A program made the translations under genes and the position numbers. The notes beneath the pieces were generated by a model. That model did no database searches. It saw only the letters and a program-made list of their open reading frames with translations, and had not been told where the DNA came from. This document shows, piece after piece, positions 1 to 33,527 of a stretch of DNA of 64,000 nt. Each line of letters starts with the position of its first letter. Positions within the stretch are counted from its first letter, which is position 1. This stretch comes from Hamadaea flava (lineage in GTDB: Bacteria > Actinomycetota > Actinomycetes > Mycobacteriales > Micromonosporaceae). The stretch covers positions 6,200,001 through 6,264,000 of the forward strand of contig NZ_JAMZDZ010000001.1 of the NCBI RefSeq assembly GCF_024172085.1, given 5' to 3'.

Positions 1-219
1 CTCCTCGCTGGACGGCATCAGGTGGGCGTATCGCCGGAGCGTGAAGGCAGGGTCGGAGTGTTGGTGAACACTCACGCCTACGGCTTCCCCGCCGCACACT
101 GCCCGACATTCGACCTGCGCCACCTGTCAGGCGGCGAGCTGTTCAACACGTACGCCGACTCGTTCGACCGTGTGTGGTCCAGTGGCAAGCCCATCTGGGG
201 CGGCCTCGTGGCAGGCTAG
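1..219 (+). CDS. C-terminal fragment of an XRE-type regulator with a DUF5919-like domain (partial)
   Basis: The frame is open from base 1 to the TAG at 217-219, so the gene begins outside the window. The visible 72 residues contain NTHAYGFPAAHCPTFDLR and GGELFNTYADSFDRVW, which resemble the C-terminal ligand or sensor part of actinobacterial helix-turn-helix proteins with a DUF5919 domain. The NUDIX gene starts five bases after the stop, so the two are probably one transcript: a regulator followed by a nucleotide hydrolase. The DNA-binding end is not visible, so the regulator call rests on family resemblance only. Confidence 0.6.
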   Translation, partial: LLAGRHQVGVSPEREGRVGVLVNTHAYGFPAAHCPTFDLRHLSGGELFNTYADSFDRVWSSGKPIWGGLVAG

Positions 220-223
220 GGGA

Positions 224-694
224 GTGGCACGTATCGAACATTTCCACGACCCTCAAGCCTCGAAGCCGAACACGATTGTCTCCGCCGTCACCGTTCACGT
301 TGTGGACGAGCACGGGCGCATCTTGCTCATCCAGCGAACCGACAATGGCCTCTGGGCGCTTCCGGGTGGAGCGCAGGAGTTCGGCGAGTACATCGCCGAG
401 ACTGCGGTCCGTGAGACGCTCGAAGAGACTGGCGTGACGGTGCGCGTGACCGACATCGTGGGCGTCTATACCAACCCGAACCACGTTGTGGAGTTCAGTG
501 ATGGCGAGGTCCGCCAGCAGTTCTCGATCTGTTTCCGTGGTGAGTACGTCTCCGGCGAGCCGACCACAAGCGAGGAGTCATCGCGCGTCAGGTGGGTGCC
601 GCACGCAGAACTGGACTCGCTTGACATCCACCCCTCGATGAGGCTGCGCATCGATCACGGCTACGAGGACCGGACGAAGCCCTATATCGGCTGA
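224..694 (+). CDS. NUDIX hydrolase
   Basis: About 156 residues. The Nudix box is clear: GG-x5-E-x7-RETLEETG, about residues 50-70, with the glutamates that bind Mg2+ in this family. Such enzymes cleave nucleoside diphosphates linked to another group; the substrate cannot be read from sequence. The GTG at 224 is preferred because it directly follows the stop of the upstream regulator and sits behind an AGGGGA stretch. A more upstream GTG at 170 lies inside the regulator gene. A second NUDIX gene behind a regulator occurs at 29000, so the regulator-NUDIX pairing appears twice in this window. Confidence 0.88.
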   Translation: MARIEHFHDPQASKPNTIVSAVTVHVVDEHGRILLIQRTDNGLWALPGGAQEFGEYIAETAVRETLEETGVTVRVTDIVGVYTNPNHVVEFSDGEVRQQFSICFRGEYVSGEPTTSEESSRVRWVPHAELDSLDIHPSMRLRIDHGYEDRTKPYIG

Positions 695-1188
695 GCGGCC
701 CGCTCCACGCGGTCGATCGCGGCCAGCAGAGTCGGCCGAGCCCGCACCCAGAATCGGGTTACGAGGTGATCGGGGCCGTAGCGTTCGCCGATCTCGTCCA
801 GCCGTGTAGTCACGTCGATCGGAGCGCCGTCGGGCGTAGTGGTCATGTCGGCGTACCACAGCGCGTCAGCAGTGATGGAGTGCTCCTGCTCGAACTCCGC
901 GACCAGAGCCGCAGCGAGACCACGCTCCTCCGCCTCGAACAGCGCACAGGAGTGGTACGCCACCAGCGCGGCGAGACGGGGAGACTGGCCCTGTTGGAGG
1001 AGCCACCGAGCGCCGTCAAGCGAGTGAAAGCCAGTGTGCGCGATGTCCGGCGCGTACCCGATGTCATGCAGCCAGGCAGCAGCGACGAGCAAGTCGCGGT
1101 CCTTCTCCGGGACCACCCGGGCGATCTCGCGGGCTTTTGCCGCTACGCCCTGTACATGTTGCCAACGCCTGGGTAGGGAGGCCGCCAA
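682..1188 (-). CDS. HD-domain protein (putative phosphohydrolase)
   Basis: 168 residues, convergent with the NUDIX gene and overlapping its last 13 bases. The motif WLHDIGYAPDI (about residues 39-49) with a following H-x-DGARWL and YHS fits the metal-binding HD superfamily, whose members usually hydrolyse phosphomonoesters or phosphodiesters of nucleotides. The likely start is the TTG at 1188, because an in-frame TAG lies just upstream and leaves almost no room for an earlier start. The N-terminus begins abruptly at the PRRWQHV helix. Neighbouring NUDIX and HD genes suggest nucleotide-pool or signal turnover, which is an inference. Confidence 0.8.
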   Translation of the reverse strand: MAASLPRRWQHVQGVAAKAREIARVVPEKDRDLLVAAAWLHDIGYAPDIAHTGFHSLDGARWLLQQGQSPRLAALVAYHSCALFEAEERGLAAALVAEFEQEHSITADALWYADMTTTPDGAPIDVTTRLDEIGERYGPDHLVTRFWVRARPTLLAAIDRVERAAQPI

Positions 1189-1977: not shown

Positions 1978-2161
1978 TGCCTCCGGCGGGAGCGCTCGGG
2001 CTCCAGGATGGCTGAGCACCATCCCGTCACCGACGACCCAGGCGGAGCCGACCCGGAACCTGCCCTCCTGGTCAAGGTCGTTCGGCAAGTGTGGCGCTCC
2101 ACCTTGACCAGGAGGGCAGAACCCGGGTCCACCAGTGTGTGGGTGACGGCGACGGGATGGC
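1978..2161. repeat. Nested palindromic element, copy A
   Basis: The parts in order are: a 35-bp block at 1978-2012 that matches 33 of 35 bases with copy B; an outer left arm (CCATCCCGT...GACCCA, 2019-2041); an inner left arm at 2060-2078; a 22-nt loop at 2079-2100; a perfect 19-bp inner right arm at 2101-2119; and an outer right arm (TGGGTGACGG...GGGATGG, to 2161) that is the approximate inverse of the outer left arm. The loop starts CGTTC and ends GCTCC, as in copy B. It lies just upstream of a small membrane-protein gene. This could be a non-autonomous mobile element, a recombination site or a structured regulatory element. Confidence 0.7.
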
Positions 2162-2220
2162 CGTAGATGCCAGCTCGCGCCGGTTAAGGTTTGTTCAGGT
2201 TCCGCCATGCTCGAACGGGA

Positions 2221-2718
2221 GTGACGTCGTTGAAGGCTGAAACGCTCGCATCGATCGTCGTTGCGCTGCCGTCATTTCTGACGGCTGTCCTGTCGGCGAA
2301 GGTGGCAGCTTCTCGCCGAAGCCAAGCAGACCAGATGCTCCGGACACTCAAGGAGGAGACAGAGCTGGCGGATGCATTGCCCGAGGGGAGCGTGGCTCAG
2401 CAGGTGTTACGCCAACATGCAGACTTCGCGGCTCCGCTTTACGTCAGAATGCGGGTTGCAGACGCGCTGATCAAGGTCGACAAGACCGGAATCATTCTCG
2501 GAATCATCTTGATCACGATCGGCGCTGGCCTTGCCTGGTTTCTCATCGCGAAAGGCGGTTGGCTACTGTGGTTGACCCCGGTGCCGCTGGCGTTCCTCCT
2601 TTTCGGCATCGTGGGCTTCTTCTACGAATTGTCCGGCGGTAAGCATGGTGACAAGATCCGGAAGGAACTTGCTGGCGAGAGCCCCGGCGGCACCGAGCCA
2701 ACCGGATCCCCCGCCTAG
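2221..2718 (+). CDS. Small membrane protein with two C-terminal transmembrane helices
   Basis: 165 residues from the GTG at 2221; a TTG at 2191 would add ten. An N-terminal hydrophobic stretch is followed by a charged helical region (about residues 25-65). Then come two strong membrane helices, IILGIILITIGAGLAWFLI and WLLWLTPVPLAFLLFGIVG, and a polar tail ending GGTEPTGSPA. No family is recognised. The gene lies between palindrome copy A and half copy C, which have the same orientation, so it looks like a cassette bracketed by repeats. Function unknown. Confidence 0.65.
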   Translation: MTSLKAETLASIVVALPSFLTAVLSAKVAASRRSQADQMLRTLKEETELADALPEGSVAQQVLRQHADFAAPLYVRMRVADALIKVDKTGIILGIILITIGAGLAWFLIAKGGWLLWLTPVPLAFLLFGIVGFFYELSGGKHGDKIRKELAGESPGGTEPTGSPA

Positions 2719-2783
2719 ACGGAAGCCCTACCGGCACGGCAGCTCGGCTAGTCGCGGCAACGAATCCGCCAGCCCGACGCTCG

Positions 2784-2842
2784 ACCTTGACGGGGCGGTG
2801 GGACCTGTGTCCGCGTTGTGGGTCGACGGCCAACGGGATGGC
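2784..2842. repeat. Nested palindromic element, half copy C
   Basis: This segment has the right half only: ACCTTGAC of the inner right arm at 2784-2791, then the outer right arm TTGTGGGTCGACGG...ACGGGATGGC ending at 2842. It closely matches the same parts of copies A and B. The matching left arm is absent; upstream is the end of the membrane-protein gene. The half copy is in the same orientation as copy A. Confidence 0.55.
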
Positions 2843-2851
2843 ACCGTGGAG

Positions 2852-3322
2852 TCAAGCGGGAGTTGACGATCGCCCTGACGGAAGTGGCCAGAACTTGGGC
2901 GGGGCAGTCGACGGGTCCGTAACTTCCAGTCGACTTCCTGGCGTCGGGTCGATTCCTTTGAGTTTGATCAAGCGCTGTGAGGGTGCCGTAGCAAGCACGT
3001 CCAGCGCGATCGGCAGACCAGCGCAGACCGATCCGATGGCGACACCGAGCCCTTGGAGGCCGTTGATCTTATGGCTGTACTGGATGCGGTGTAGGCCCGA
3101 TCTGGCGATCGCTTCCACTTCTAGCTGACGGCTCAACTGTCTGGAATCGTTCGTCAGGATGGCATGGAAACCCTCTTGAGCGGCTCGATCGTAGAGGTCC
3201 AAATCGCCGGTTCCAGACCAGCCTGCCAGGTCGATCACGTGTGCGATCTCATGATGAGTAACGAAGGTGATGATGGCCCGGTGGAGCGGTCGTGCCACGT
3301 TCTCATCAAGTAGGACCCTCAA
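2852..3322 (-). CDS. PIN-like toxin, VapC45-type
   Basis: 156 residues. The N-terminus MRVLLDENVARPL, the central HVIDLAGWSGTGDLDLYDRA, and ILTNDSRQL supply the spaced acidic residues of PIN-like RNases of the VapC45/Mut7-C group (D6, E7, a central D/D pair, then a late D). Such toxins cut RNA when freed from their antitoxin. The gene overlaps the upstream antitoxin gene by four bases (ATGA), the usual sign of translational coupling in toxin-antitoxin operons. The last 30 or so residues after KLKGIDPTPGS look like a read-through tail and may not be part of the fold. Confidence 0.75.
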   Translation of the reverse strand: MRVLLDENVARPLHRAIITFVTHHEIAHVIDLAGWSGTGDLDLYDRAAQEGFHAILTNDSRQLSRQLEVEAIARSGLHRIQYSHKINGLQGLGVAIGSVCAGLPIALDVLATAPSQRLIKLKGIDPTPGSRLEVTDPSTAPPKFWPLPSGRSSTPA

Positions 3323-3957
3323 GCCGCTTCACGCACCGGCTGGTAGGAGTCGACGTAGTTGGCGAAGTCCGCAGCGTCCAAGGCTGCTTCTCGCGAGACG
3401 CCCGCGTAGAAGTCGTCGATCCTCTCCGGCGCGATTCCGTCACGCACGAGCGCAGCCACCTCTGCAGAGGGGATGCGAGTACCCGCGATCACAGGTTCCC
3501 CACCGCGAACCCCCGGCACTACGCGTACGTGGTCCCTGGGCTCGAAGAGGTCCGGGATGCTCCGTCCGTTTCGATAGAAGGGGCGCAGTACATCGACCAT
3601 TTCGGCGATGACCGTGTGGCCCCTCCGCTTGACGAGGTCCACCGCCTGATCTGGCGCAACTAGATAGATCGTGCTGCCGTCCGAAACAAGCTGGTACTCG
3701 GACAGGTGCTGCCGCTCGCCGAGGTCCACTCGGAGCGTATCGAGGGCCTTCCGAATCTTCTGAAGTGAAGCGTCGTTCCGAAGCTTCACACAGGTGCGCA
3801 GAGCGACGATGTCCCGGAAGGAGTACAAGATCGGCTTGTCTGGCGACAGCTCCGGCCGGAGGATGGGCTCGCCCTTGGGCGGAGGCTTACGCCAGTGAGC
3901 GAGCTGCGCCATCGTTGCCCCAGACAGGGCGGCAGCCATCTTTGGCTCGTAGCTCAT
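3319..3957 (-). CDS. VapB45-type antitoxin with MerR-like N-terminus and DUF433 domain
   Basis: 212 residues. The N-terminal 100 residues (SYEPKMAAALSGATMAQLAHW, then YSFRDIVALRTCVKLR) resemble a MerR-like winged helix that binds DNA. The C-terminal 80 residues (EPVIAGTRIPSAEVAALVRDGIAPERIDDFY) are a DUF433 domain. This order is that of mycobacterial VapB45 (Rv2018), which pairs with a PIN-like toxin. The start ATG at 3957 is preceded by a strong GAGGGGAAGGGGG. The antitoxin probably represses its own promoter. Confidence 0.78.
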   Translation of the reverse strand: MSYEPKMAAALSGATMAQLAHWRKPPPKGEPILRPELSPDKPILYSFRDIVALRTCVKLRNDASLQKIRKALDTLRVDLGERQHLSEYQLVSDGSTIYLVAPDQAVDLVKRRGHTVIAEMVDVLRPFYRNGRSIPDLFEPRDHVRVVPGVRGGEPVIAGTRIPSAEVAALVRDGIAPERIDDFYAGVSREAALDAADFANYVDSYQPVREAA

Positions 3958-4436
3958 AACGTTGCACCCCCTTCCCCTCTGATACAGACGATCGCATATG
4001 GCGGCCGTGGCGTGCAGTCCGCCGACCGGTCAGAGCCGTTTATTGCTGTCTTGTTTCTATTAACACTAAAGCTCTGGAAAGTGTCACGTTGCCCGTTCTG
4101 ATCATGGCGCTCCGCGCGTATCGCCCTGGAGTACATCGGGCGCACATGAGGCTGTGAACGTCGGCAAGACACCATGATCAGAGGCAAGGCCGGATGCACC
4201 CCAGCGAGCGCGCCCGAACTTGTGTGCTGGTCGTATGCCGAAGACCCAGTTCCGCTTCGACCGTATTGGCCGTGGCACCGTGCTGGGCCGTCTCTGGGCC
4301 GTCTGGGCCGCCACCGGGCCGCCACCGGGCCGCCACCGGGCCGCCAAAAGGCGACCAACGACGACCAACGAGAACCAAGAATGCCGTGAATACGCCCAGC
4401 TCAGAACGCTGGAAACCGACTTGATCAGGAGGGCGA
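3958..4436. other. Intergenic region between vapB45-like gene and rnpB
   Basis: No convincing gene. It holds the promoter of the toxin-antitoxin pair (minus strand, directly above 3957), an 11-bp inverted repeat TCTGATCATGG / CCATGATCAGA at 4097-4107 and 4172-4182, and the short tandem repeat at 4305-4345. The 3' flank of rnpB lies at the right end. Open frames here run into the RNase P RNA gene and are not believed. Confidence 0.5.
4305..4345. repeat. 11-bp tandem repeat
   Basis: The unit GGGCCGCCACC occurs three times exactly, then a partial GGGCCGCC. It is preceded by degenerate GGGCCGTCT units. It lies downstream of the rnpB 3' end. Probably a slippage repeat. Confidence 0.75.
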
Positions 4437-4837
<401 letters not shown>

Positions 4838-16138: not shown

Positions 16139-16262
16139 CATGCTGTGCTTGCCGATTCATGACCAATGCTTGAGCCGAGGAGCGTGGCTCAGGCATTGGT
16201 CATGCTGTGCTTGCCGATTCATGACCAATGCTTGAGCCGAGGAGCGTGGCTCAAGCATTGGT
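16139..16262. repeat. 62-bp tandem duplication carrying a terminator hairpin
   Basis: Units 16139-16200 and 16201-16262 are identical except at one base. Each contains a long hairpin (ATGACCAATGC...GCATTGGTCAT with GAGCC/GGCTC inside). The right arm of the second unit encodes the last codons and stop of the truncated haemoglobin gene. The hairpin is therefore a terminator partly inside the gene, duplicated in tandem. Confidence 0.85.
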
Positions 16263-16622
16263 CATGAAGTAGGCAGCCCGCTCGAGGTAGTCCCACAGGG
16301 TCTGCTCCAGCTCCGGCTCCAGGCCCAGCGAGTCGACCGCCACCCGCATGTGTTTGAGCCAGGCGTCGCGAGCCTCGGCGTCCACCGTGAAGGGCGCGTG
16401 GCGTATGCGGAGCCGCGGGTGCCCGCGCTCGTCCGAGTACGTCGTCGGCCCGCCCCAGTACTGGATCAGGAACTTGGTGAGCCGGTCGCGCGCCGGGCCG
16501 AGGTCCTCCTCCGGGTACATCGGGCGGAGCAGCGGGTCGTCGGCGACCCCGGCGTAGAAGGCGTCCACCAGCTTCCGGAAGGTCGGCTCGCCGCCGAACT
16601 GTTCGTACAGGCTGACCGTCAC
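16251..16622 (-). CDS. glbO: Group II truncated haemoglobin
   Basis: 123 residues from GTG 16622. SLYEQFGGEPTFRKLVDAFYAGVADDPLLRPMYPEEDL is the typical A to E helix region. FLIQYWGGPTTYSDERGHPRLRIRHAPF contains the distal Tyr/Trp region and the proximal His, and a conserved Trp occurs in LWDYLERAAYFM. The family binds O2 in actinobacteria and is mostly cytoplasmic. An upstream frame extension to 16658 lacks homology. Confidence 0.92.
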   Translation of the reverse strand: MTVSLYEQFGGEPTFRKLVDAFYAGVADDPLLRPMYPEEDLGPARDRLTKFLIQYWGGPTTYSDERGHPRLRIRHAPFTVDAEARDAWLKHMRVAVDSLGLEPELEQTLWDYLERAAYFMTNA

Positions 16623-26444: not shown

Positions 26445-26518
26445 GCGGGCGTAGCTCAATGGTAGAGCCTCAGTCTTCCAAACTGATTACGTGAGTTCGA
26501 TTCTCATCGCCCGCTCCA
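26445..26518 (+). tRNA. tRNA-Gly (anticodon UCC)
   Basis: 74 nt with an encoded CCA end. The acceptor arms GCGGGCG and CGCCCGC pair, the D arm is GCTC/GAGC, the anticodon stem is TCAGT/ACTGA with TCC at 26477-26479, and the T arm is GTGAG-TTCGATT-CTCAT. Its 3' 47 bases are duplicated at 33481-33527, so it is the integration target of the island to its right. A GAGGCCCAGGTC/GACCTGGGCCTC hairpin follows. Confidence 0.95.
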
Positions 26519-26520
26519 CA
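26474..26520. repeat. attL: 47-bp repeat in tRNA-Gly
   Basis: Begins at TCTTCCAAACTG in the anticodon stem-loop and ends two bases beyond the CCA end. It is identical to 33481-33527. Confidence 0.85.
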
Positions 26521-27402: not shown

Positions 27403-28182
27403 GTGGTGTCGGTGATCGAACCGTCCAAGTCGCAATACGTCCAGATCGCCGAACTTCTTCAGCGGCGTATCGACGACGGCACGTATCCGCCTGGTTCTGT
27501 CCTGCCGAGCGAGCCCGATCTCGCGAATGAACTGAACGTCTCGCGAGTGACCGTCAACAAGGCGGTAACCCTGCTCAGGGCCAGTGGCGCGGTGAAGGTG
27601 CGGCGTGGAGCGGGCACCTTCGTTCGCAGCCTGCCGAAGATCCCCCGTGATGCGGTGGCCCGCTTCGCGGCGCGAGGCCAGGGCACCGGAGCCGGTCAGG
27701 TCGAGATCACGAAGCTCAACCTGCAATCACGTACGGCCTACCTGCACATCGGCGAGGTGACGGCACCGCCGGAGGTAGACCGGCTTCTCCAGCTCAACGG
27801 CCGGCCCGCGCTCGTTCGCAGCCGGGTCCTGTTCGCCAACGAGGAGCCGACGCAGCTCGCCGACTCGTACTACCCGTGGGCGCTCGTCAAGAACAGCAAC
27901 CTGACCGAGCCGGACGTCGGAAAAGGCGGCTCGTACGGACGCCTCGCAGACCTGGGACACGGACCCGTCCGGTTCACCGAGGACATCAACGTCCGCATGC
28001 CCACAGACGACGAACGCCGGAGGCTGGAGATCGAGCCGACGCTGCCCGTCTTCGAGATCACGCATGTCGCGTACGCCGAAGGCGATCAACCGGTCAGCGT
28101 GACGATCCACGTCATGCCCGGCCACCTCTGGACTCTGCGCTACGGCTGGAACGACATGGCCGGCGAAGGCGCGCAAGGATGA
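27403..28182 (+). CDS. GntR-family regulator with UTRA domain
   Basis: 259 residues. The N-terminal winged helix YVQIAELLQRRIDDGTYPPGSVLPSEPDLANELNVSRVTVNKAVTLLRASGAV is typical GntR; the rest (LNGRPALVRSRVLFANEEPTQLADSYYPW to VTIHVMPGHLW) is a UTRA ligand domain. Proteins of this type control integrative elements (the KorSA class) as well as metabolism. It starts with GTG GTG behind AGGTGAG and overlaps the next gene by four bases, leading a three-gene operon. Confidence 0.92.
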   Translation: MVSVIEPSKSQYVQIAELLQRRIDDGTYPPGSVLPSEPDLANELNVSRVTVNKAVTLLRASGAVKVRRGAGTFVRSLPKIPRDAVARFAARGQGTGAGQVEITKLNLQSRTAYLHIGEVTAPPEVDRLLQLNGRPALVRSRVLFANEEPTQLADSYYPWALVKNSNLTEPDVGKGGSYGRLADLGHGPVRFTEDINVRMPTDDERRRLEIEPTLPVFEITHVAYAEGDQPVSVTIHVMPGHLWTLRYGWNDMAGEGAQG

Positions 28183-29003
28183 TCGAGGTCAGATCCGCCA
28201 CGGCTGCTGCTCCTGGTCGCCCGGAGAATGAGGATGCCGTCTTCCAAGTCGGGAACCTGGTCGGAGTTCTCGATGGCGTCACGCAAGCTGATGGGGTCGA
28301 CTCCGGATGCATCCATGGAGCAGCTTGGTACGTGCGCCGTCTTGCTAGGCGGCTCGCCGAGCAGCACAGCGCCGACCCCGCCAAGCCGTTGAAGGAGATC
28401 CTGGCTGAGGCCATCTCGGCGGTGCGTGACGACCACCCTGACTGCGACCTCACCGCACCGACCACGCCGGCCGCGACCGTCTGCCTTGTGCGAGTCGACG
28501 CGGGTCGCTTCGACTATCTGGTCTTGTGCGACGTGACCCTGGTGCTGGAAGTCGAGGGTGAGGTCCAGGCCATCACCGACGACCGCTTTGAGCAGATCAT
28601 TACCCGGCTGCGCCGGGCGCCCGCCGACTCAGATGACGCGTTCGCGGCCAACCGCGGCTACACCCCGGGTAAGTGGGACTTCACCAACCGCGACGGCGGT
28701 TACTGGATCGCTGCCGCTGAACCCGCCGCTGCCGCGCACGCGATCACCGGAAGCCTGCCAGCGCACGGTGATGGAAGCCCTAGCCGGATCGCGCTCCTGA
28801 CGGACGGAGCCGCCTGCGCCGTCGACTCGCTCGGCATCTTGACCTGGCCAGCCTTGTTGAAGGTCCTCAGCGACGAAGGGCCGAGCGAACTCATCCGTCA
28901 GGTACGCGAGGCGGAGCGCCGCCGCAATGCCGCCGGCCGCGTCGTGGGTAAGCCACACGACGATGCGACCGCAGCCGTTCTGGTCATCACGGAGGAACCA
29001 TGA
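28179..29003 (+). CDS. PP2C-like phosphatase domain protein
   Basis: 274 residues from ATG 28179 (ATGA overlap with the GntR gene). NEDAVFQVGNLVGVLDGVTQADG, IALLTDGA and the C-terminal KPHDDATAAVLVI follow the order of PP2C motifs: Asp-Gly, Thr-Asp-Gly and Asp-Asp-Ala-Thr. PP2C enzymes remove phosphate from Ser/Thr using two metal ions. The protein target is unknown. It ends with an ATGA overlap into the NUDIX gene, so the three genes are tightly coupled. Confidence 0.75.
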   Translation: MIEVRSATAAAPGRPENEDAVFQVGNLVGVLDGVTQADGVDSGCIHGAAWYVRRLARRLAEQHSADPAKPLKEILAEAISAVRDDHPDCDLTAPTTPAATVCLVRVDAGRFDYLVLCDVTLVLEVEGEVQAITDDRFEQIITRLRRAPADSDDAFAANRGYTPGKWDFTNRDGGYWIAAAEPAAAAHAITGSLPAHGDGSPSRIALLTDGAACAVDSLGILTWPALLKVLSDEGPSELIRQVREAERRRNAAGRVVGKPHDDATAAVLVITEEP

Positions 29004-29425
29004 CCCTGCCCCGCCACTCCGTCAGCGTCACTGGAGTCGTCGTAGACGATCAGGACCGTGTTCTCGTCATCCAGCGGCGCGACAACGGCCGATGGGAACT
29101 GCCAGGCGGAGTTCTGGAGCTGGACGAGTCCATCCCGGACGGCATGAAGCGCGAAGTCCTGGAGGAGACGGGCGTCCACGTCGAACCTGTACGCCTCACT
29201 GGCGTCTACAAGAACATTAAGGTCGGCGTCGTCGCCCTGGTGTTTCTCGCTCGCTACGTCTCCGGCACGCCGATCACCACAGACGAGTCGCAGGCCGTCG
29301 AATGGTGGACCGTCGATGATGTCCGAGCCAGGATGCCGGAAGTCTACGCCGTCAGAGCGCTCGATGCGCTTCAGGCCACTAGTCCCGCCGTCCGAATCCA
29401 TGATGGAGTGACGCTAATCGGTTAG
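29000..29425 (+). CDS. NUDIX hydrolase
   Basis: 141 residues. The Nudix box GGVLELDESIPDGMKREVLEETG (about residues 37-59) is intact: G-x5-E-x7-REVLEETG. It is the last gene of the GntR-PP2C-NUDIX operon. Substrate unknown. Its Nudix box and flanking strands (VLVIQRRDNGRWELPGG) resemble those of the NUDIX protein at 224-694 (ILLIQRTDNGLWALPGG), so the two may be distant paralogues. Confidence 0.9.
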   Translation: MTLPRHSVSVTGVVVDDQDRVLVIQRRDNGRWELPGGVLELDESIPDGMKREVLEETGVHVEPVRLTGVYKNIKVGVVALVFLARYVSGTPITTDESQAVEWWTVDDVRARMPEVYAVRALDALQATSPAVRIHDGVTLIG

Positions 29426-29523: not shown

Positions 29524-30753
29524 ATGGTGGTGGCCGTGCCCGAAGCAGACGACTTGGACGTAGTTGATCAGCTTGCAGATGCGATCGACGAGCCCGAGGA
29601 GGATTCGTCCAGCCCCTTCTTCGTCAGCAAGAAGGCAGCCGCAGTTCTCAAGCACGAGATCTTGCGTCAGTACGTGACGCCATTTGTGAGTAAGATCGGA
29701 CTATACGCTAAGGATCGTAGGGTCGTATTCCTCGATGGGTATGCAGGTCCGGGAACCTATTCGGACGGCACTCCGGGCTCTCCTGCCCTCATTCTCGGAT
29801 CTGCTCAATCGGTGGCGGCGTTTCGCACGCTCGAATGCTACTTTGTGGAGCGTAGTCGGCAGGATTATCTGCGGCTGAGGGCGCTCGTGGAGCAACTGTC
29901 GGCGACTGGAATCGTGGCCGAAGCACTGAAGGGGCGCGTCGAGAGCCACCTTGATTACGTACTGGAGAAGGCTAAGGGCGCGCCGCTGCTAGCCTTTCTG
30001 GATCCGTTCGGCCTCGGAATCAGCTTCGAGGACCTTACCCAGAAGATATTTGGCCCTGCGCGGCCCCATGTCGCAGGTGGCACCGAGGTCCTCCTGAACT
30101 TCTCTTCGAACGCCGTTCGACGGATCGGCGGGCTGCTCCTGACGGAAAAGGCAGTGAAAAATCGCGATGTCACGCTCGCTCGAATGGACGAGGTATGCGG
30201 CGGTGATTGGTGGCGGGCGGTCTTCCTTGCTGCGCCCGACAATGCATCGGCGGTCGAGGCAATAGCGAATGGATACGCCGACCGAGTATGCAGGCAGGTC
30301 GGTGCCGTTGCATGGACAGTTGCCGTTCGAAACCGTAGGCATCACCAGCCGATCTATCACCTTGTGTTCTTCACACGGCACTGGGACGGCGTCTGGCTAT
30401 TCGGCGAGGCAAACTCCATTGCCCAGGCGGCTTGGCGACGTGAATGCGCGCCGCCGCATGTTCCGGACGACAACGCACTTTTCGATCTCGGTGATCCCTT
30501 CGACGCCGAAGAGGCGACACGGGAGGAGAGCTGGGTAATTGAGGTCATGGCAAATATTCAAAGACTTCTTGCCGAGATTGGTGCGTTCCAGCTACAAAGC
30601 TTCCACGCTGCTGTGCTTGGGAGCGCCATCGATCATGCACGCAAAAAGCACATCCGGGAGGCGGTTAAGCGTCTGTACAAGGCGGGCGCGACTGGATGTG
30701 ATGGCAAGGGAGACGTCGAGAAATTTGTGCTTACACCCTCGACTGCCGCCTAG
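29524..30753 (+). CDS. tcmP: Three-Cys-motif partner protein TcmP
   Basis: 409 residues. After an acidic N-terminus, SPFFVSKKAAAVLKHEILRQYVTPFVSKIG leads into VVFLDGYAGPGTYSDGTPGSP, a methyltransferase-like glycine loop, then LLAFLDPFGLG. This is the TcmP family, named for its constant neighbour, the three-Cys-motif protein, which lies next to it here. Codon use is less G/C-rich than in the surrounding chromosome, a sign of transfer. The pair converges and overlaps by four bases. Function of the family is not established. Confidence 0.88.
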   Translation: MVVAVPEADDLDVVDQLADAIDEPEEDSSSPFFVSKKAAAVLKHEILRQYVTPFVSKIGLYAKDRRVVFLDGYAGPGTYSDGTPGSPALILGSAQSVAAFRTLECYFVERSRQDYLRLRALVEQLSATGIVAEALKGRVESHLDYVLEKAKGAPLLAFLDPFGLGISFEDLTQKIFGPARPHVAGGTEVLLNFSSNAVRRIGGLLLTEKAVKNRDVTLARMDEVCGGDWWRAVFLAAPDNASAVEAIANGYADRVCRQVGAVAWTVAVRNRRHHQPIYHLVFFTRHWDGVWLFGEANSIAQAAWRRECAPPHVPDDNALFDLGDPFDAEEATREESWVIEVMANIQRLLAEIGAFQLQSFHAAVLGSAIDHARKKHIREAVKRLYKAGATGCDGKGDVEKFVLTPSTAA

Positions 30754-31514
30754 ACTCGTAAGAGTTCGTGCCCGACATATGTGTCAGGCATCTCGTCCCA
30801 GACTTGTCCGTCTAGGACGCGGCCACCTGACTTCGGGGTTGGTCCACCCCACTGCTTGAAGAAGAAGGGAACGTTGCTGCGTACGCAGACGTCTCGCAGC
30901 TGGCGAATTGCGGCCGCATCGACGGCCCGATACTGAGGCCCGCTCTCGCCGCCGGCTATGACCCAGTCGATATTCCGTAGGTGTAGATCCGGCAGTGCTC
31001 CCAGGAGCGGCTCACAGGAAAGAAATCGAACTGCTGCGGGAACGTCTCGCAAATGATCCGCTCTGTTAACGACCTTATTGTTCTCGATGGAGACGCCGAC
31101 CCATACATTCGCTGGCCAGTCAATCAATCCCGCTAGTCGCCGAAGGCGTAGGGAGCGCTTGGTCAGTATCTGATAGGTGTGCTGTGGAGTTTCACGCATC
31201 GTATCGAAGACGTCGGCGATGAACGAGAGTGGAACCTTCGCGTGGAAGAGGTCGCTCATGGAGTTAACGAACACCAGGCGAGGCCGTTTCCATCGACGTG
31301 GCAAAGCGAGCGAGTCATGATGCAGCGTCACGCCAAATCCGGGGCCCGACGTCCGCGGGTCGCCGTCGTTCTGGTACCTGGGCTGACCCATAGCCTTCAG
31401 TCGTTTTGCCAAGGTCAGGGCGTAGCAGTTGTCGCATCCAGCCGACACACGATCGCATCCAGTTGACGGATTCCACGTGGCCTCGGTCCATTCGATCTGG
31501 CTGCGATCTCCCAT
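30750..31514 (-). CDS. Three-Cys-motif protein, phage Gp37/Gp68 family (DUF5131)
   Basis: 254 residues from ATG 31514 behind GGAAGGATACC. IEWTEATWNPSTGCDRVSAG followed by CDNCYA gives C-x6-C-x2-C, the family's three-cysteine site that may hold an Fe-S cluster. VFVNSMSDLFH, YQILTKRS, VWVGVSIEN, LSCEPLLG and WVIAGGESG follow in the usual order. The pattern recalls radical SAM enzymes, although the cysteine spacing differs from the canonical one. It converges with tcmP. Confidence 0.92.
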   Translation of the reverse strand: MGDRSQIEWTEATWNPSTGCDRVSAGCDNCYALTLAKRLKAMGQPRYQNDGDPRTSGPGFGVTLHHDSLALPRRWKRPRLVFVNSMSDLFHAKVPLSFIADVFDTMRETPQHTYQILTKRSLRLRRLAGLIDWPANVWVGVSIENNKVVNRADHLRDVPAAVRFLSCEPLLGALPDLHLRNIDWVIAGGESGPQYRAVDAAAIRQLRDVCVRSNVPFFFKQWGGPTPKSGGRVLDGQVWDEMPDTYVGHELLRV

Positions 31515-31561
31515 GGTCGTATCCTTCCGCGGACCTGTCGGAAAAGCAGGAACTGTAGGGC

Positions 31562-31954
31562 GTGTCAACCACAGTTTTAGTCAGGCTAACCTACCCTTGC
31601 GGGTTTGTCGAACGTTCGTTCGATGATAAGTGGGAAGTCTGTGGATCATGCGGGCATCGCACGCTAACAATATTCCTGGATGGACAGCCTCGTCGGGCTG
31701 AGCGGTCAGAATCTCTTCGGCCAGCCGACGAGTTGCCCTGCGCGAATTCTCCCTGGGAAGGTCAACGGCAGTCGAACGCTCGTGACGCAGCACGTTCGAT
31801 GGACTTGATTGCCGAATTCTTCTCTACAGGATCAAGGCGGCCCGCAAGCGGCCCGCAAGCGGGCCGCGCCGTGCCGCTTTCGCCGCCGCGGCTATACCTT
31901 CGGCCCGCCGCGCGGCGGCGGCCGGCGCACAGTTGGCGACGTCCGGCATCCTGA
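31562..31954 (+). CDS. Possible small cysteine-containing protein, 3' part doubtful
   Basis: The GTG at 31562 opens a frame whose first 85 residues look coding (LTYPCGFVERSFDDKWEVCGSCGHRTLTIFLDGQ, a C-x-n-CxxC pattern, then ARSMDLIAEFF). Beyond about 31830 it runs into GC-rich repeat-like DNA. It is divergent from the DUF5131 gene with 47 bases between the starts. It could be a real gene with a degenerate end. Confidence 0.35.
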   Translation: MSTTVLVRLTYPCGFVERSFDDKWEVCGSCGHRTLTIFLDGQPRRAERSESLRPADELPCANSPWEGQRQSNARDAARSMDLIAEFFSTGSRRPASGPQAGRAVPLSPPRLYLRPAARRRPAHSWRRPAS

Positions 31955-32054: not shown

Positions 32055-32283
32055 TGCCTCCGGCGGGGGCGCTCCGGCTCCAGGATGGCCGACGCGCGTA
32101 CGCGACGAGAGGTAAGGGAGTGGTTGAGCTGGGGTATGCCATCCCGCCCGCCATCGACCCAGGCTGAAGCCTTCAAGATTCCCCTGAGCGGGTCAAGGTC
32201 GTTCAGTCGTGGAGTGCTCCACCTTGACCCGCTCAGGGGAATCTTGACCACGGTGTGTGGGTCGACGGCAGACGGGATGGCAT
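32055..32283. repeat. Nested palindromic element, copy B
   Basis: The 35-bp block is at 32055-32089 (33 of 35 bases as in copy A). The outer left arm GCCATCCCGCCCGCC...GACCCA spans 32138-32162 and the inner left arm 32173-32199. The loop at 32200-32220 starts CGTTC and ends GCTCC. The inner right arm at 32221-32247 is a perfect 27-bp complement, and the outer right arm TGTGTGGGTCGACGG...GGGATGGC ends at 32281. The inner arms share only about nine bases with copy A, yet both pair perfectly. It lies just upstream of the zinc-ribbon gene in the tRNA-Gly island. Confidence 0.72.
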
Positions 32284-33480: not shown

Positions 33481-33527
33481 TCTTCCAAACTGATTACGTG
33501 AGTTCGATTCTCATCGCCCGCTCCACA
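33481..33527. repeat. attR: 47-bp copy of the tRNA-Gly 3' end
   Basis: Identical to 26474-26520, so only the anticodon loop to CCA end is present and no tRNA can be made. A GAAGCCCAGGTC/GACCTGGGCTTC hairpin follows, probably the original tRNA terminator. Confidence 0.85.

Follow-up and report, generated by a model that had tools for sequence, protein, structure and literature searches.

A nested palindrome with a fixed hairpin tip and freely changing arms: a possible single-strand origin of AICE-type elements

A family of nested palindromes, with two full copies in the 64,000-nucleotide stretch of the Hamadaea flava genome analysed here (the window), changes the letters of its stems freely while pairing and the hairpin tip stay fixed. 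The strand that seems to be under selection is the complement of the one on which an earlier sequence-only reading had described the palindromes (the reader's strand), and is the minus strand for the window copies. The best explanation that we can offer, held tentatively and with the balance slightly against it, is that the palindrome is an orientation-specific, cis-acting hairpin of AICE-type elements, similar to sso or ssi sites, that primes second-strand synthesis on ssDNA.

Direct reading of the window confirms two nested palindromes, copy A (2019-2160) and copy B (32139-32280), the minus strand being the one that probably folds in both, together with the right half of a third, copy C (2784-2841, minus strand), presumably a relic. 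Copy A consists of outer arms at 2019-2040 and 2140-2160, inner arms at 2060-2078 and 2101-2119 and a tip at 2079-2100; in copy B the inner arms lie at 32173-32199 and 32221-32247 and the tip at 32200-32220. The inner arms are perfectly paired over 19 bp in A and 27 bp in B and have GGTCAAGGT, adjoining the tip, in common. Both copies also share the tip CGTTC...GCTCC, the outer arms CCATCCCG...GACCCA and TGGGT...CGGGATGG, and a leading block on the plus strand, read from the sequence at 1978-2012 (GCCTCCGGCGGGAGC...CCAGGATGGC) and 32055-32089, that is identical at 33 of 35 bases and different at two. Of 135 distinct members of the family, 93 have a CCTCYRGCRG block upstream of the core, no more than 102 nt away. 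Folded as ssDNA with their leading blocks, the two full copies give z scores of -7.85 (1978-2161) and -8.54 (32055-32283), and none of 200 shuffles of either is as stable. Copy C is not matched at E 0.01 by R1, a covariance model that we built from 13 copies.

The pairing of these stems is retained across the family. In an alignment of 13 copies, 94.7% of cells pair and 21 of 41 pairs have changed on both sides; none of 500 shuffles reaches any of five pairing measures, and sliding the partner by one to three columns lowers pairing to 35-43%. Grouping of 109 distinct arm pairs at a likeness of at least 70% gives 24 clusters; these pairs were kept from 205 pattern matches by the presence of eight paired bases in ten, a filter that selects for pairing and not for the direction of mismatches. 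The first base pair of the tip loop covaries as well: among 63 distinct loops it is G-C in 32, A-T in 13, C-G in three and T-A in two, the 13 loops with a non-Watson-Crick first pair including some chance pattern matches. The sequence-only reading had offered selection on structure or copying of one arm from the other; the former is strongly supported by pairing, covariation and strand bias across homologues, and the data do not need the latter, which may nonetheless have played a part.

The mismatches that occur within the arms point to one strand. Counted as distinct cluster-position events, A.C mismatches in the letters of the reader's strand, which become G.T or G.U on its complement, number 60 against eight for G.T, and they are found in 19 of the 24 clusters against six for G.T, although events within one cluster are not fully independent. 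These stricter figures replace two earlier counts of 759 versus 157 (139 related copies) and 90 versus 19 (chance matches included). Folding energies favour the same strand: the consensus fold of the same 13 copies is -53.0 kcal/mol on the reader's strand versus -95.3 kcal/mol on its complement, and among 136 full-length folds the complement is the more stable in 133 with DNA parameters and in 131 with RNA parameters. Copies with other tip classes show a mismatch bias of 78 versus 14 (14 copies) in favour of the complement, and six distinct copies from one genome (G049) lean the opposite way, 5 versus 12. Deamination of an exposed strand could also yield the main bias, and would indicate the same strand. 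The earlier interpretation thus holds for selection on structure and for the accessory setting described below, but the strand that it described is the complement of the one seemingly selected.

Further copies, which the sequence-only reading had proposed to seek with a covariance model, are widespread, and their arms pair. R1 has matches in 43 of the 61 genomes examined from the window's family, and a single genome may hold as many as ten when both strands are counted. A tip pattern, AGGTCGTTC-N8-14-GCTCCACCT, occurs in at least 119 stretches among genome contigs, many with long paired arms and some by chance, and a stricter tip is present in seven of 296 sampled genomes of the phylum (the host genome included), against none for a reversed control pattern. 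The actinomycete copies are related, so that all such counts overstate independence. By blastn, seven plasmid records match copy A, that of Micromonospora rosaria pMR2 among them, and 19 match a Streptomyces copy. Phage records gave no match at E 1e-5 with the Streptomyces copy and one chance-level match at E 1 with copy A; among 14 pattern matches in viral contigs, paired arms are seen only in L139 and L143. In many loci of one group (L169-L181) the tip belongs to a second class, which includes a small additional hairpin (GTCAAGGCC...CTTGAC), while the outer arms and the leading block are of the same kind. A one-contig genome (G049, L195-L203) holds nine dispersed copies of about 300 bp with the same inner arms, different tips and unrelated flanks, whose loci have no match to seven AICE-type query proteins. 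These nine copies behave like a mobile or relic unit, and may represent a bare unit of about 300 bp that has spread on its own in this genome. No description of the hairpin was found in the accessible part of the openly licensed PMC literature.

Among the closest known systems are the AICEs pSAM2 and pMR2, the latter of which carries the palindrome. pMR2, listed among AICEs in PMC3364876, is a circular plasmid with integrase, excisionase, replication initiator, FtsK-type and UTRA genes, and its initiator is the RepSA query of all our searches. Its genes run in the order repSA-xis-int, and the palindrome lies just beyond int. In six Streptomyces loci (L062, L063, L082, L092, L093 and L132) the palindrome, a NUDIX gene and a UTRA regulator recur in this order, with matching orientations. 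Of 112 palindromes surveyed in the family (opposite-strand duplicates excluded), 36, from 22 genomes, lie on a contig with a RepSA gene no more than 20 kb away, the list of RepSA genes omitting most fragment rows; the other 76 do not, many of their contigs being short. Orientation, measured against the repSA gene, is nearly constant: 35 of the 36 palindromes run opposite to repSA, 31 of these being located 5' of the gene, whereas four follow a rep within a tandem array of genome G052. This genome supplies eight of the 36, five of them in one tandem array. Across the ten genomes from which the random expectation was derived, 14 of 31 palindromes lie near RepSA (eight of the 14 from G052) against 0.58 expected. 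Seen from the side of the initiator, a recognised palindrome lies within 20 kb of only 35 of the 88 long RepSA genes considered. At least one match to an AICE-type protein is found in 40 of 119 listed 8-kb loci, a count that includes NUDIX and has no control set, so that the argument is carried by the RepSA linkage test.

Some further observations concern these RepSA loci. The array in G052 (G052:C1:3883370-3947595; L191, L192 and L213) consists of AICE-like units about 16 kb apart with one palindrome each. Hairpins in 17 RepSA loci without a model match revealed nothing consistent, save in two loci of the same genome that lack the known tip (L250:980-1055 and L260:16796-16875), where the hairpins share another loop and differ in their arms; these are perhaps a second class with the same function. 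In a search for dso motifs that might fix the nick strand, seven of 28 RepSA loci proved to have CTTGATG downstream of rep, at a distance of 178-379 bp and on the antisense strand; this motif may be xis coding sequence.

In the window, the copies do lie only beside accessory genes, as the sequence-only reading had noted, and this is explained by their position inside integrated elements. Copy B lies within a 7-kb insertion at a tRNA-Gly gene (26445-26518), bounded by a perfect 47-bp repeat whose left copy (attL, 26474-26520, plus strand) covers the 3' half of the gene and whose right copy (attR) is at 33481-33527 (plus strand). The insertion carries a GntR/UTRA regulator (27403-28182, plus strand), a NUDIX gene (29000-29425, plus strand) and a cargo gene pair (29524-31568) made up of a PDC-M41A-like gene (a weak PADLOC match, plus strand) followed by a DUF5131/PDC-M41B gene (a strong match, minus strand). 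In a congener (G002), one tRNA-Gly gene bears a single att-like stretch (3 of 47 mismatched), after which come 30 bp resembling the right flank of B; the remainder of that flank resumes only 1.2 kb further on, which indicates a site without the B element but with something else nearby.

Copies A and C are flanked on one side by the RNase P RNA gene (rnpB, class A by Rfam match; 4437-4833, minus strand) and on the other, 5.3 kb away, by a perfect 36-bp copy of the 3' end of that gene; the att-like repeat occupies 4428-4463 (unstranded) at the gene and recurs identically about 0.9 kb left of the window (G000:C1:6199102-6199137). This element includes a NUDIX gene of the AICE nud type (170-694, plus strand) and an HD-domain gene of the mdp type (682-1188, minus strand). 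Within the same element, a PIN_10 and DUF433 gene pair at 2852-3957 resembles a toxin-antitoxin system. The nud and mdp genes are known accessory genes of AICEs, most known members of which integrate at tRNA 3' ends (PMC3218068, PMC3364876); the main text of PMC3218068 contains none of the terms 'palindrom', 'inverted repeat' or 'sso', so the hairpin is not described there under those words. Two of the palindromes in a second congener (G003) are some 2.3 kb distant from additional RNase P RNA 3' ends, and one of those in G002 has the RNase P RNA gene itself 1.8 kb away. The RNase P RNA gene is likely to be the integration target of a mobile element, with extra 3'-end copies in the host genome (G000) and G003. 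The Int, Xis, RepSA and TraB proteins of pMR2 have no match at E 1e-8 in the window and the 20 kb to its left, and RepSA is absent from the host genome. Given att-type direct repeats at RNA genes but no int, xis, repSA or traB, the A/C and B elements look like, at most, decayed AICEs. Elsewhere in the window (16139-16266), a 62-bp unit that holds its own inverted repeat is repeated about twice, at 98% likeness.

The same architecture, AGGTCGTTC-X...X'-GCTCCACCT, with unrelated arms and the same tip, is found outside Actinomycetota on one proteobacterial plasmid and in three CPR lineages: a proteobacterial assembly (L049), Saccharibacteria (L067), Berkelbacteria (L069 and L228) and Parcubacteria (L042), where the taxa of MAG contigs are as titled and misbinning is possible. 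Run without filters, R1 matches L049 at E 2e-8 over its full length, L067 at 3e-6 over part of the model, L042 at 6e-5 and L069 at 1e-3. Adding these four to the 13 copies gives a folded-strand alignment of 17 rows with an energy of -80.8 kcal/mol and double changes in 39 of 50 pairs. L049, L226 and L227 are one contig with overlapping ends, hence circular, of about 37.5 kb. It holds genes that by their sequence alone were named ParA-like, RepB-like and CHC2-type primase-like, and two hairpins, inverted and 5.3 kb apart. RSF1010 has a comparable inverted hairpin pair on one plasmid, the primase sites ssiA and ssiB, a likeness of arrangement. In L067, a recombinase adjoins a tRNA, a Replic_Relax protein is encoded and a DUF3768 gene stands beside the hairpin; the ORF beside the hairpin of L069 resembles that DUF3768 protein by eye. 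It is conceivable, though we regard it as doubtful, that the tip is a cross-phylum ssDNA start signal, read by a universal host enzyme and kept while the stems were fully rewritten. If so, it would serve quite generally to start the conversion of ssDNA, whether invading or displaced, into dsDNA.

Fixed orientation to the initiator, a single constrained strand, changing arms and a fixed tip together lead us to read the palindrome as a start site on ssDNA. RepSA would generate rolling-circle ssDNA of the element; the complement of the reader's strand would then fold into a long stem ending in AGGT-GGAG-C-X'...X-G-AACG-ACCT, and a conserved host enzyme, either primase or RNA polymerase, would recognise the tip and prime second-strand synthesis. 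Three parts of this model we infer: the nature of the folded molecule as ssDNA, its identity with the displaced strand and its role in priming. Rolling-circle elements require a single-strand origin and rely on enzymes of the host to use it (PMC5714925, PMC4595007), Streptomyces rolling-circle plasmids have an sso (PMC3583192) and the activity of ICEBs1 sso1 depends on its orientation (PMC4595007). What would be expected of such an origin, carriage by elements with a rolling-circle initiator and strong structure on one strand, is seen in the 36 palindromes near RepSA and in the 133 of 136 copies that fold better on the complement. Like the sso of rolling-circle plasmids and ICEBs1 sso1, the hairpin is a stem-loop of rolling-circle elements that is expected to act only as ssDNA; it differs from known sso in being one long nested stem with freely changing arms. 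TAGCGT, the ssoA loop hexamer, occurs in none of 135 copies on either strand, so that this mark of the ssoA type is lacking. The sso of the Streptomyces plasmid pIJ101 is sti, and this plasmid, also an actinomycete rolling-circle replicon, was considered as a palindrome carrier and rejected, having no tip match and a best R1 match of E 0.11, which is not significant (8,800 of 8,830 bases scanned).

Several points weigh against an sso. If CTTGATG were the nick site, the displaced strand would be the reader's, contrary to the sso model; by the usual rule for rolling-circle plasmids, in which the displaced strand has the sense of rep, it would be the constrained one. A site that follows closely on rep, along the direction in which rep is transcribed, would be exposed early, whereas a typical sso is not. 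The long RepSA genes without a recognised palindrome, the 76 of 112 palindromes with no RepSA within 20 kb, the opposite lean of the G049 copies, whose loci lack AICE-type matches, the negative result with pIJ101 and the tolerance of G.U, which also suits RNA, count against it too.

The main rival is a structured RNA, in which the complement of the reader's strand is transcribed and a long dsRNA with a fixed tip stabilises, processes or regulates element transcripts, perhaps, in the circular form, as read-through from the int operon across attP. The tolerance of G.U suits RNA at least as well as ssDNA; the 60 versus 8 asymmetry, the covariation in both the 13-row and 17-row alignments and the energy gap between strands, which is larger with RNA than with DNA parameters (mean -16.5 versus -7.4 kcal/mol), are all consistent with it. 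We nevertheless think it rather unlikely. No Rfam model beyond RNase P and two tRNAs has a match anywhere in the window at gathering score, and in E-value mode the hairpins attract only weak sub-threshold matches, mostly to miRNA models that reflect hairpin shape. The orientation of neighbouring genes is mixed (>E< 28, <E< 28, <E> 24 and >E> 24 among the 104 of 138 copies with both neighbours called by home-made ORF calls), and by eye alone the conserved edges show no promoter or U-tract. If it were an RNA, the family would be broad and uncatalogued.

Frpo is a single-stranded promoter, and a hairpin of that kind, bound as a folded strand by an RNA polymerase that both transcribes a downstream early gene and primes, would accord with L067 and L069, where the hairpin points at the DUF3768 gene or the ORF resembling it, each starting within about 100 bp. 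This is improbable, since int, the first gene at which the pMR2 hairpin points, has the opposite orientation, and since there is no conservation in the arms, the part in which promoter boxes would be expected. The common core of about 300 bp with unrelated flanks in the nine G049 copies, and the presence of as many as ten matches in one genome, with both strands included, would suit a dispersed non-autonomous transposable unit, a MITE-like palindrome. Against this, RepSA-linked copies are fixed in position and orientation, pairing is kept while arms change, and among 140 neighbour proteins (of 197 ORFs) no transposase family has more than three matches among the 25 families listed per set; we consider such a unit very improbable. 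Least probable of all is a terminator or insulator at the element end, a role that fits the mostly intergenic position of the copies and the placement of RepSA-linked ones at the end of the element, but that needs neither cross-phylum conservation of the tip nor a constant orientation to rep.

The palindrome is a usable marker of decayed elements, both window copies having led to insertions with perfect att repeats. If it is indeed an sso, AICEs, which are conjugative and common in antibiotic-producing actinomycetes, would gain a part of their replication that we did not find described in the accessible portion of the openly licensed PMC literature. It would also provide a single conserved structure for finding out by which host enzyme second-strand synthesis is begun in bacteria as distant as Streptomyces and Saccharibacteria.
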